Origin: a virus
Strand: one strand, 5' to 3'
DNA: 43,475 nucleotides
IMG/VR virus record: IMGVR_UViG_3300011116_000710
Location: 1-43,475 of that record
Shown piece after piece: positions 2,650 to 5,317 of this stretch; within the stretch, counting starts at the first letter, position 1, and every line of letters starts with the position of its first letter. Below the pieces are notes generated by a model. It had not been told where the DNA came from and did not search any database. It was given only the letters and a program-made list of their open reading frames with translations. Made by a program: the position numbers and the translations under genes.

Positions 2650-2957
2650 CCCCGACCGAGCGAGTGCTGGCGGACGTCCAGCTGGAACGCGAACGGCAGA
2701 CGGCCGAGCATGGCGAGCAGCGGCTCCCGGCCGGAACGTGCGAGCCTTGGGATGAGACCGAGCGCGACGCATCGCGGCTGCGCTGCGATCGGGCAACGCT
2801 GGCCGGCACGCTGACCTGGCGACACGTCCTCGAGGAGGAGGTCGCCGAGGTCTTCGCCGAGGTCGATCCGGCCGCGCTGCGGGCCGAGCTGGTGCAGGTC
2901 GCCGCGGTGGCCGTCCAGTGGATCGAAGCACTGGACCGAGAGACGCGCAGCGAATAG
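2646..2957 (+). CDS. MazG-like nucleotide pyrophosphohydrolase-related protein
   Basis: A 103-residue all-helical protein. It has ERERQ and a nearby HGEQ, then TWRHVLEEEVAEVFAE, and later LRAELVQVAAVAVQWIEAL. The EEVAE...E pattern and the following ELVQVAAVAV helix match small phage and actinobacterial MazG-like proteins, which hydrolyse (d)NTPs to monophosphates. The final aspartate of the classic EXXD pair reads ELVQ here, so activity is uncertain. It is the last gene before the terminator at 2988. Confidence 0.7.
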   Translation: MTPTERVLADVQLERERQTAEHGEQRLPAGTCEPWDETERDASRLRCDRATLAGTLTWRHVLEEEVAEVFAEVDPAALRAELVQVAAVAVQWIEALDRETRSE

Positions 2958-2987
2958 GCTGCGCTGGTCGCCGGGTGGTCCGGCGCA

Positions 2988-3055
2988 GCGGACGGGCGTT
3001 CTGGTCGGCTCATGTGGGCCGATCTGGCTGAAAGCGGGCGCCCGTCCGCCTTTTT
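2988..3055 (+). terminator. Rho-independent terminator with nested hairpin
   Basis: A perfect 11-bp inverted repeat, GCGGACGGGCG (2988-2998) with CGCCCGTCCGC (3039-3049), is followed by TTTTT and then a second T-run. The 40-nt loop contains its own short hairpin (tcggct/ggccga). It closes the ssb-ruvC-mazG operon just before a new gene cluster. The unusually long structured loop could also belong to a small RNA. Confidence 0.75.
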
Positions 3056-3081
3056 GCTTTTTGCGCGCCCGGTGATATACC
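3053..3081 (+). promoter_or_regulatory. Possible promoter upstream of origin operon
   Basis: A TATACC box at 3076-3081 lies about 17 bases after TTTGCT in the T-rich tail of the terminator, in the only non-coding gap of this region. The -35 match is poor. It would drive the gene at 3122 and the initiator/loader genes. This is inferred from position and base composition only. Confidence 0.35.
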
Positions 3082-3121
3082 GCGCTCCCGGCCGATGCCC
3101 GGCCGAAAGGAGCAGCGACTC

Positions 3122-3406
3122 ATGCCGCACATCATCGCAACGATCCCCGCCGCCGACGGCGAAAGCGAAATCGACGTCCGAATCGAGGTCGGTCTCGACC
3201 TCGGTCGGCTGGACCTGATCGAGCACCAAATCGAGGCGGTGCGCCTGACCGGATCGACGCAGGACGTCGCCGGCGCGCTGTCGCTGGCGCAGCTCGCAGC
3301 CGTCGAACGGGCCGTCGAAAGTCACCTTGACGAGCTGATCGAGCAGGCCTTGCGCGACGCGGCCGACGAGCTGGCCGAGGCTCGCGCGGAAGACCGGCGG
3401 GGCTGA
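3122..3406 (+). CDS. Hypothetical protein upstream of initiator
   Basis: A 94-residue acidic protein. The ATG at 3122 is preferred over an upstream ATG at 3095 because AAAGGAG sits 10 bases before it. The N-terminal third looks beta-rich (HIIATIPAADGESEIDVRIE) and the rest helical, ending in an Ala/Glu-rich segment. It is the first gene after the terminator and two bases upstream of the initiator gene. No family is recognised. Confidence 0.65.
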   Translation: MPHIIATIPAADGESEIDVRIEVGLDLGRLDLIEHQIEAVRLTGSTQDVAGALSLAQLAAVERAVESHLDELIEQALRDAADELAEARAEDRRG

Positions 3407-3408
3407 CC

Positions 3409-4485
3409 GTGACACCGGAGCAGATTGAGGAGCTGCGCGCCACCTGGCGCGAGGCGGCGGCGGCGTTGTCGCGCCTGCGCTCGCTGCTGGTCGCGGCTGG
3501 CGTGCAACTGGACGATGCAGGACCGGCCGAGCCGGTCGAGTCGGCCGAAGATCGCCGTCGTCGACTGGCACGCGAGCGTGCGCGGCGACATCGCGAGCGT
3601 CACGCTGACAGCGTGACGAAGCGTGACGCAGGCGTTACCGCGTCACGGTCGGAGCGTTACGCAAGCGTTACGAAGCGTGACGGCGTAACGCAGGACAGCG
3701 TTACGAAGCGTGACGCGAGCGTTACGCAAGCCTCGCGCGCGCCCGCGTTCCTTATAGGAGAAAGTATTTACCCCCTGTCTTTTCTCGAATCCTATCGGAT
3801 TCTCGAAAAGCCACCCCACCCCACGGCCGAGGAGCGTGACGCAACGCCGGCCGTCGCCCCGATCGGCGTCACGCTGGCCGTCGACCCGGGCGCCGACCTC
3901 GCAGACGAGCTTTTCGGTCCGATCGAGTCCGACCCGGTCGCGCCGATGGCCGAGGAACCGGCTTCGCTTGCCCGTGGGGCGACGATCGACCCCTTGCCGC
4001 GGTCTGTATCCGTCCCGGTGGCCGATCGCGCGCCAGAAGGCGACAGCGGCCGTCCGGCGCTCGCGCTCCTGCCGGGCGTGCCGGAGGAGCCCGAAAGCGT
4101 CACGGTCGTCTGGTCGGCCTATCTTGAGGCGATCAAGCCGACCCGGGCGCGGCTCACGTCGACCCGGCGGCAACTGATCGTCCGCCGGCTGCAGGACTAC
4201 CCGGTCGCCGACCTTGTCCGAGCGATCCGCGGCTACGGTCGAAGCTCCTGGCATCGCGGCGACAATCCGCGCGGTCGACCGTACCAGGCGCTCGAGCTCT
4301 GGCTGCGAGACGCCGCGCACGTCGAAGCCGGCTGGGCGTTCGAGGTAGCGCAGCCGACTGCAAAAAAAAGAAGTGGACCGGCGCTTTTCGATGGAATAGA
4401 AGCCGAGTGGCAAGCGATCGAACAGCAGCGCGCGGCAGAGCGCGACTTGACGCCGGCAGACTCCGGCGAGGAGCAGCGACAATGA
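3409..4485 (+). CDS. Replication initiator, lambda O-like, with internal origin
   Basis: A 358-residue protein starting with GTG. The N-terminus is helical and basic (to about residue 62). Residues 63-106 are a repetitive linker (SVTKRD repeated) created by DNA iterons. An AT-rich segment and a Pro/Ala-rich linker follow. The C-terminal domain (about 228-320) has VWSAYLEAIKPTRARLTSTR, RRLQDYPVADLVRAIRGY and then WHRGDNPRGRPYQALELWLR. That layout is typical of phage and plasmid replication-initiation proteins acting with a DnaC-like loader. Its gene encloses the presumed origin and overlaps the DnaC-like gene by ATGA, as lambda O and P genes adjoin. It would bind the iterons and bring in the helicase loader. 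Function is inferred from layout and C-domain resemblance. Confidence 0.75.
   Translation: MTPEQIEELRATWREAAAALSRLRSLLVAAGVQLDDAGPAEPVESAEDRRRRLARERARRHRERHADSVTKRDAGVTASRSERYASVTKRDGVTQDSVTKRDASVTQASRAPAFLIGESIYPLSFLESYRILEKPPHPTAEERDATPAVAPIGVTLAVDPGADLADELFGPIESDPVAPMAEEPASLARGATIDPLPRSVSVPVADRAPEGDSGRPALALLPGVPEEPESVTVVWSAYLEAIKPTRARLTSTRRQLIVRRLQDYPVADLVRAIRGYGRSSWHRGDNPRGRPYQALELWLRDAAHVEAGWAFEVAQPTAKKRSGPALFDGIEAEWQAIEQQRAAERDLTPADSGEEQRQ
3597..3726 (+). repeat. Origin iterons: three tandem 43-44 bp units
   Basis: The palindromic core GCGTNACG occurs at 3597, 3611, 3621, 3640, 3654, 3665, 3675, 3683, 3698, 3708 and 3719, with a one-base variant at 3632. The sites form three tandem units starting at 3597, 3640 and 3683. 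Each has four sites at offsets of about 0, 14-15, 24-25 and 35-36, so three of the four are spaced 10-11 bp apart, one helical turn. This is seen directly. Reading it as initiator binding sites is an inference. Confidence 0.88.
3748..3812 (+). other. Presumed replication origin: AT-rich unwinding region with inverted repeat
   Basis: Just after the iterons the sequence becomes clearly AT-richer than its surroundings. It includes a near-perfect 14-bp inverted repeat, CTTTTCTCGAATCC (3779-3792) and GGATTCTCGAAAAG (3797-3810), around a TATC loop, with two mismatches. Iterons followed by an AT-rich stretch within an initiator gene is the layout of lambda ori. Confidence 0.7.
4363..4402 (+). promoter_or_regulatory. 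Possible promoter sharing a 16-bp motif with 39458
   Basis: The 16-mer AAAAAAAGAAGTGGAC at 4363-4378 also occurs exactly at 39458-39473. Here GTGGAC is followed after 18 bases by TAGAAG, a weak -10-like box, about 80 bases before the DnaC-like gene. It lies within the initiator coding sequence. A promoter for the loader and downstream genes is possible. Confidence 0.35.
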
Positions 4486-5135
4486 ACGCAGATGCATGGA
4501 TTACTAGACTTCGAGAGCGGGCCGCAGGCGTCGACGTGCTGGCGATTGCTGACGCGGTCGAGGACGACGCGCACCGGGCGGCGGCGGATCGACGCCGGGC
4601 TCGGCTGACCGCGGCCGGCGTGCCGCTCGACCCGGAGGCGCTCGAGGCCGCAGTCGACGCGCCGGGCTCCTGTCCGATGGTCGCCGGCCACGTCGGCAGC
4701 GAGGCGGCTGCTCGCGCGGTCGAGGCCTTTCTCGCCGACCTGCATCGTCGGACGCTCCTCCTCGTCGGGCCGACCGGTCGAGGCAAATCGTTTGCGGCCA
4801 CCTGGGCGCTTGCCGAGCTCGCCGGCGCCTGGCTTGCCGCGTCTGACGTTCGCGTCTCCGGCTGGGATGATTTGCGACCGCGGGCCGTCGGCGCTCGCCT
4901 CCTCGTCGTCGACGACCTCGGCCGCGAATCGACCGACTGGTCCGCTCGCGAGCTCGCCGACCTCCTCGAGCTGCGGCATAACCGAGGGCTCCGGACGATC
5001 GCGACCTCGAACCTGCCCGGTCGCAAGTTGGTCGAGCGTTACGGCGAGCGTCTCGCGTCACGCTGGGCCGATCCTCGATTCACATCGACCGTCGAGGTGC
5101 TCGGCGGCGACCTTCGCGCGCGAGGTGGACGATGA
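4482..5135 (+). CDS. DnaC-like helicase loader ATPase
   Basis: A 217-residue AAA+ ATPase of the DnaC/IstB group. Walker A is GPTGRGKS (residues 96-103), Walker B is LLVVDDLGRE (about 140-149), the sensor is ATSN (174-177), and ERLASR (189-194) offers the arginine-finger position. The roughly 90-residue N-terminal region is helical and would contact the host replicative helicase. Its ATG is in an ATGA overlap with the initiator stop. No phage helicase or polymerase is visible, so it most likely loads host DnaB at the origin in the preceding gene. Confidence 0.88.
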   Translation: MNADAWITRLRERAAGVDVLAIADAVEDDAHRAAADRRRARLTAAGVPLDPEALEAAVDAPGSCPMVAGHVGSEAAARAVEAFLADLHRRTLLLVGPTGRGKSFAATWALAELAGAWLAASDVRVSGWDDLRPRAVGARLLVVDDLGRESTDWSARELADLLELRHNRGLRTIATSNLPGRKLVERYGERLASRWADPRFTSTVEVLGGDLRARGGR

Positions 5136-5317
5136 GCATCGATCGGAACAGACACCTCGACGGCGGGGCTGACCGCTCCGGACGTCGAACGGAACGAAAC
5201 GGCTACACGGTCGAATTCGCGGCGCTGGTATTCCGCGCGCTCGTTGCGCTCGGTATCAATCGGGCCGAGGCCGAGCGGGCGGCGCGTCGAATGGTCACGG
5301 GGCGGGGCGCACAATGA
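5132..5317 (+). CDS. Small protein with RuvA domain III-like motif
   Basis: A 61-residue protein coupled by ATGA to the helicase loader. The N-terminal 25 residues are polar and disordered in character. The C-terminal part, ALVALGINRAEAERAARRM, closely resembles the ALVALG...EA helical bundle of RuvA domain III, which contacts RuvB in bacteria. A fragment-like protein that interacts with branch-migration machinery is a possibility but is unproven. Confidence 0.6.
   Translation: MSIDRNRHLDGGADRSGRRTERNGYTVEFAALVFRALVALGINRAEAERAARRMVTGRGAQ

Follow-up and report, generated by a model that had tools for sequence, protein, structure and literature searches.

Does a cluster of short palindromes inside the initiator gene of an uncultured phage mark its replication origin, and if so, which part of the initiator would read it? 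A few model phages are known to have their origin inside the initiator gene. The iteron origin embedded in the initiator gene of phage lambda (PMC7466680) and oriL of Bacillus phage SPP1, which is associated with gp38 (PMC6316719), are established by experiment, and that in ORF20 of Staphylococcus phage 80alpha is supported by failed trans-complementation (PMC5499656). The window, by which we mean the whole 43,475-bp stretch of viral DNA analysed here (an IMG/VR virus record), carries such a cluster at 3597-3726. We assign a probability of about 0.8 to the reading that this array and its AT-rich neighbour form a replication origin within the stretch of the initiator gene that codes for the linker, with a basic helix of the initiator as the reader. 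The features of the locus are listed below.

758-1315: gene for the HTH protein of the operon (PF13384, E 1.1e-10)
1308-1685: SSB gene, upstream of the initiator gene
1685-2332: RuvC-like resolvase gene, upstream of the initiator gene
3409-4485, + strand: replication initiator gene, 358 aa from a GTG start, with the iteron array inside it
3415-3495, + strand: N-terminal helix, residues 3-29 (AlphaFold2, pLDDT about 95)
3544-3657, + strand: long basic helix, residues 46-83 (AlphaFold2, pLDDT 83-97 over residues 41-70)
3597-3726, + strand: iteron array with core GTNAC, 11 exact GCGTNACG octamers and one variant
3597-3639, + strand: unit 1, sites at 3597, 3611, 3621, and 3632 (the variant, GCGTTACC, 3632-3639)
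3640-3682, + strand: unit 2, sites at 3640, 3654, 3665, and 3675
3683-3726, + strand: unit 3, sites at 3683, 3698, 3708, and 3719
3748-3807, no strand: AT-rich segment, putative DNA-unwinding element (60-bp GC 0.40)
3779-3810, no strand: inverted repeat, arms 3779-3792 and 3797-3810, 12/14 pairs, loop TATC
3834-3873, + strand: single octamers at 3834 and 3866, past the AT-rich segment; possibly accessory sites
4078-4413, + strand: conserved C-terminal domain, residues 224-335 (phrog_16167)
4482-5135, + strand: DnaC-like helicase loader gene (phrog_50, E 3.8e-17; phrog_3277, E 3.8e-14)

A recount agrees with the initial annotation on the 11 octamers and the variant, and on their arrangement in three tandem units. 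The four sites are offset by 0/14/24/35 in unit 1, 0/14/25/35 in unit 2, and 0/15/25/36 in unit 3. Sites 2-4 of every unit are spaced by one helical turn and this near-helical register runs on into the next unit, while site 1 of every unit is out of register; nine of the 12 sites hold it. The likeness of the units is mainly one of layout. Ungapped identity among them is 25, 13, and 18 of 43 positions, so the layout is repeated more than the sequence, and 3607-3638 is 91% alike to 3694-3725. The 43-bp four-site unit has so far been found in the window phage only. Past the array, five single octamers (3834, 3866, 4097, 5036, and 5055) lie within 1.3 kb, more densely than in the remaining record, and are possible accessory sites.

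The array stands out from chance in every null applied. The octamer has 55 strand matches in the window versus 17.6 +/- 4.0 in shuffles, and outside the array the window still has about twice as many copies as expected. Eleven copies lie inside 144 bp, and any 130 bp outside 3590-3880 holds at most two, which bears out the remark that there is no second cluster. Synonymous recoding of the linker gave a mean of 1.26 sites and a maximum of seven, so that the observed 11 were reached in 0/20,000 trials. When the codons of the gene itself were permuted between synonymous positions, 11 sites arose in 0.03% of cases (P = 0.0003), and shuffling the codon order of the linker gave at most three. Chance clustering in GC-rich DNA is ruled out by the shuffles, the recoding nulls, and a matched palindromic control. 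The octamers of the window start at codon positions 1, 2, and 3, and this use of all three frames, together with the synonymous null, argues that selection acts on the DNA. Among 40 nonredundant relatives, at least two frames are used in 40/40 and all three in 26/40. An octamer at codon position 1 is limited to a centre of C or T, because other centres would make stops; the centre is C at such sites in the window, and C or T in 45/45 of those in the relatives.

The AT-rich segment with its inverted repeat is likewise where it had been placed. The 60 bp from 3748 are the GC minimum of the record, with 40% versus 66.3% overall, tied with one other place, and 12 of the 14 pairs of the inverted repeat are formed. 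The DNA hairpin predicted for this region has a free energy of -9.6 kcal/mol (z = -2.5). A turning point of GC skew near 3.7 kb had been suggested as a check, and there is none; the cumulative skew rises along the whole record and is thus uninformative. No promoter-like site was found in 2900-5200, and an Rfam search of 3000-5200 gave no match. The start of the loader gene overlaps the initiator stop (ATGA), and its two PHROG matches agree with a DnaC-like loader in this place.

The initiator itself fits the label of a lambda-O-like protein only in part. Its residues 224-335 match phrog_16167 (replication initiation protein) with an E of 1.2e-9, and there is a weak match to the O-like phrog_345 (E 0.038). 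A Pfam search found no family at E 1, so the PF09681 N-terminal domain is absent. AlphaFold2, given a shallow and mixed alignment, predicts two confident helices (residues 3-29 and 46-83), followed by disorder and a poorly modelled C-terminal domain; a single-sequence model of the short relative L186 has a long helix spanning the motif described below as well. There is no sign of a lambda O-type winged helix in the Pfam search or in the model of residues 1-83. The gene layout and, weakly, the C-terminal domain therefore speak for the label, and membership in the lambda O family and the winged helix do not. An hhalign comparison with lambda O aligned the N-terminal regions of relatives only. 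Judged from the model, the N-terminal helix may be an oligomerisation element. The C-terminal domain, judged from its sequence, is the probable contact for the loader or helicase. A related C-terminal domain is present in 58 viral contigs and in the O proteins of Flyfo phage Tbat2_3 and phage P12026; the search of phage records found no full-length homologue, the match being C-terminal only. In the bacterium Bosea sp. Tri-44 (NZ_NBDP01000016.1, L184:3001-3042), 14 residues are 86% identical to the end of the C-terminal domain (HVEAGWAFEVAKP). This stretch may be what is left of a prophage and might point to the host group.

The basic helix of the window initiator contains R55-E-R-A-R-R-H-R-E-R64 (RERARRHRER, residues 55-64, coded at about 3571-3600). 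This sequence meets a general motif, A-x-R57-x-x-x-[YHF]61-R62-x-R64, except that R replaces A at position 55. Searches of solved structures with the initiator (Foldseek and sequence) found no analogue; as these and the fold searches were empty, we claim no structural analogue of the helix; a resemblance to the basic regions of eukaryotic bZIP proteins is conjectural.

Comparison with known systems separates the shared layout from the different parts. Like the lambda origin, the window locus has inverted-repeat iterons midway along the initiator gene, an AT-rich element adjacent downstream, and a loader gene next (annotation; PMC7466680). Lambda has four iterons of about 18-19 bp, whereas the window has twelve palindromes of 8-9 bp with the core GTNAC, and no iterons of the lambda length are found in the array. 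Lambda O has a winged-helix N-terminal domain with neither basic helix nor GTNAC array, while the window initiator has the basic helix and no winged helix; the lambda P loader is also of a type different from the DnaC-like loader. Of the proposed lambda-like origin, the iteron array, the AT-rich segment, and the loader are supported, and membership in the lambda O family is not supported. SPP1 oriL resembles the window in having direct repeats and an AT-rich unwinding element in the initiator gene (PMC6316719). In 80alpha the loader gene also lies next to the initiator ORF20, but there is no basic helix and no GTNAC array, and the repeats are larger and contain ACCGTTAACGGT. The annotated origin in ORF20 (L448, 1746-1873) has two 29-bp repeats with the palindrome ACCGTTAACGGT, the second copy reading ACCGTTAATGGT, and also an AT-rich ACTAATAATAAT array. 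The replisome organizers with a PF09681 (Phage_rep_org_N) domain, such as phi11 gp15 (RQQRYR) and SM1 gp19 (RVARHR), have the same basic helix followed by GTNAC arrays. They differ from the window initiator in their winged-helix N-terminal domain and in their GTWAC arrays, which often overlap as GTAACGTTAC. With its helix RQQRYR and array GTAACGTTACCGTAACGTTACGTAAC, phi11 gp15 is a possible laboratory case.

A palindromic core peculiar to this phage is not supported either, since GTNAC arrays occur widely among phage initiators. L126, the nearest relative, was found via the C-terminal domain, in which it is 55% identical, and has a different N-terminal half. It carries a basic segment, AIRQARYRSRN, and then six GTNAC sites in a different linker, and does not keep the 43-bp unit. 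Conservation of the protein linker with loss of the DNA repeats had been named as evidence against an origin; this relative presents the opposite, keeping the DNA sites and not the linker protein. Three octamers spaced by 10-11 bp occur in 68 IMG/VR contigs versus three for a palindromic control of the same composition, and in 0/385 host genomes of one class; in the contigs that have them, the array is mostly in phage initiators. The nonredundant set comprises 53 ORFs, namely those of the window and L126 and 51 from DNA pattern scans, and many of them match PHROG replication-initiation, DnaD-like, replisome-organizer, O-like, or primosomal families. By inspection, the motif A-x-R-x-x-x-[YHF]-R-x-R is present in about 43/53, and in the alignment of these cluster-bearing ORFs R57 is found in 49 and R62 in 50. 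The strict motif regex hits 36/56 cluster ORFs; among the remaining ORFs at these loci it hits 330/3,118. Across 40 nonredundant loci, the 100 bp that follow the array downstream are richer in AT than the locus as a whole (0.544 versus 0.607, P 1.8e-7), which is not so for the 100 bp upstream. We found no description of the GTNAC class, its spread over unrelated initiators, or the helix-iteron relation in the open literature searched, and know of no GTNAC array with a demonstrated function. Embedded iteron origins are of a known kind.

Some arrays of the class depart from the usual setting. Perfect tandem arrays with the same core, with repeats of 10 bp in L005 (2694-2751, CGTAACGCGA) and 11 bp in L111 (1384-1446, ACGTGACGCCA), lie outside any clear initiator linker, the latter where a short initiator-like ORF ends, its stop falling inside the array. 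In linkers of L343-L422 with at least four GTNAC, adjacent spacings are nearly only 5-7 and 10-12 bp and never 8-9 bp, which suggests half-turn and full-turn packing of initiator subunits.

As the loci of the class had been chosen by DNA pattern, the association with the motif required independent tests, and two sets were chosen by protein. Set (a) comprises 80 loci with a related C-terminal domain, 64 of them nonredundant and full-length; two of the 80, L263 and L268, repeat the contigs of L078 and L191 and so are not fresh. GTNAC clusters are present in 7/9 loci with the strict motif versus 4/55 without it (P 1.7e-5). Both misses are chance matches of the regex close to where the stop-to-stop frame begins. 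Of the four unexplained clusters, three go with a variant helix (AERQQRRR, TERKRRQR, and AERVRKHR), and the fourth, in L269, is of another kind. The L269 initiator has a winged-helix-like N-terminus and no basic motif, and the match at 2501 lies in a linker (aa 102-147) with repeated GTCACAGTGACACCC, a different palindromic iteron type. Set (b) comprises 80 loci with the Phage_rep_org_N winged helix, of which 50 are nonredundant. With a relaxed helix regex, clusters are found in 25/28 versus 5/22 (P 2e-6). This regex left variants unclassified, which the alignment column of R57 classified better; by that column, and with a threshold of at least four GTNAC per 120 bp, clusters are found in 30/34 R loci versus 0/16 non-R loci (P 1e-9). 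Seven other five-base palindromes reach the same density in 0-7 of the 50 loci. Among 18 annotated initiators, clusters accompany the helix or one of its variants in those of phiRgPS_6, ppBjS10J-1, and phi297, and lambda O and TP901-1 have neither. The lactococcal TP901-1 Rep was thus rejected as an experimentally known member. Cyanophage Cy-LDV1 (L250, O gene) has the motif ERSRAFRERQR, which is followed by a CATGCAACG repeat in place of a GTNAC array.

Among the non-R initiators of set (b), helix classes were defined by inspection, each with its own repeat. The YMxxYR helix goes with CTAAC/GTTAG (6/6), EYNRLA with GTCANTGAC (3/3), RDRxYQxxRR with TCGTC (3/4), and EYQRxY with GTTTAG (2/3), and the R-class helix has at least two copies of GTNAC in 32/34. 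In a reverse search, 23/23 contigs with TAACAGTAAANYTAACAGTAAA have it within an initiator of this kind, following a YM-type helix; they are largely of one protein family, and several of them also belong to set (b). In the R class, the central base can be predicted, as a trend, from the residue next after R57. Valine at 58 goes with GTWAC (2 S to 110 W centres, 21 loci) and lysine with GTSAC (23 S to 4 W, 5 loci; V versus K, P 1.5e-5 by locus). In other families, A/S/T/K at 58 goes with S-centred arrays in 12/12 loci versus 6/27 for Q/M (P 4.7e-6) at similar GC (0.62 and 0.60). Further loci agree, L281, L287, phiRgPS_6, and phi297 for K and L286 and SM1 for V, most of their sequences having been viewed before the centre rule was stated. 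Both the motif definition and the position-58 rule came from inspection and were only partly tested on fresh data. The window initiator (A58, H61) is an exception to the trend, as alanine predicts GTSAC and the centres, CGGTCTTGATGT, are six S and six W. A conceptual parallel, and only that, is the geminivirus Rep, in which a short initiator segment co-varies with the iteron sequence; geminivirus Reps are unrelated rolling-circle initiators of other fold and mechanism.

On a tree of the winged helix, at least 10 changes of helix class and at least 13 of iteron class are required. Independent pairs never disagree in direction, nine on the best tree and three on well-supported branches, the latter being too few for a significant sign test. 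Being neighbours in one gene, helix and array may be inherited as one block. Six loci (L039, L052, L069, L190, L216, and L240) have the array about 30-90 codons upstream of the helix, within the part coding for the N-terminal domain; some of these arrays look like an insertion in the winged-helix region. That the pairing holds there favours function over mere proximity.

These data suggest how the origin may work. The initiator would bind the twelve GTNAC palindromes, probably as dimers, and the nine sites in near-helical register would bring the bound subunits into a compact nucleoprotein complex, which would strain and melt the adjoining AT-rich segment. The C-terminal domain would then recruit the DnaC-like loader from the next gene, and the loader would load the replicative helicase. 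This order of binding, opening, and loading is drawn by analogy with lambda (PMC7466680), with SPP1, where initiator, loader, and helicase act in turn (PMC6316719), and with the genetics of 80alpha (PMC5499656). The iterons are most likely read by the basic alpha-helix (residues about 46-70, including R57 and R62) and not by a lambda-type winged helix, as we infer from L126, the recurrence of the class, the loci chosen by protein, the helix classes, and the centre base.

Other readings of the array have to be weighed against an embedded origin. It may be an autoregulatory operator of the replication operon, bound by the initiator or another phage protein, with the origin elsewhere. Clustered palindromic sites are typical of operators too and the HTH protein of the operon could be the binder, but the search of 2900-5200 found no promoter-like site, and the palindromes lie well inside the gene, adjoining the AT-rich minimum of the record. 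Moreover, the class recurs within initiator genes with the AT-rich flank downstream only, and the iteron sequence tracks the initiator's own helix, all of which makes an operator improbable. A repeat kept for the sake of the protein, in which an SVTKRD linker is selected and the DNA pattern is a by-product, deserves hardly any credence. Although the linker has a repetitive sequence (SVTKRDAGVT...) and this GC-rich genome favours certain codons, protein-level selection is rejected by the frame usage and by the failure of the synonymous and codon-order nulls to yield the array; L126, with its DNA sites in a different linker, and the use of at least two frames by 40/40 relatives argue in the same direction.

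It is also conceivable, if rather doubtful, that the sites are origin iterons read by a winged helix or another domain, with the basic helix only a co-inherited structural or non-specific DNA-binding neighbour. A winged helix does form the N-terminal domain of lambda O and many relatives, the usual distance of 10-45 codons between helix and array makes inheritance as a block easy, and the tree offers few well-supported independent switches. On the other hand, the window protein has no recognisable winged helix, and the iteron changes with the helix inside one winged-helix family. The pairing is kept in the six loci with an upstream array, and the residue after R57 predicts the central base. 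These points favour the basic helix as the reader of the sites.

Beyond the window phage, we lean slightly towards the view that many phage initiators whose N- and C-terminal domains are unrelated share one interchangeable module for choosing the origin, which consists of the basic helix and its cognate palindromes in the same gene, R57 picking GTNAC and residue 58 its centre. If this is true, origin specificity would be readable from protein sequence, and the module would be a DNA-recognition element undescribed in the literature searched. The pattern offers a sequence-readable rule from helix residue to iteron across many phages, and with it a means of finding the origin of an uncultured phage like that of the window.
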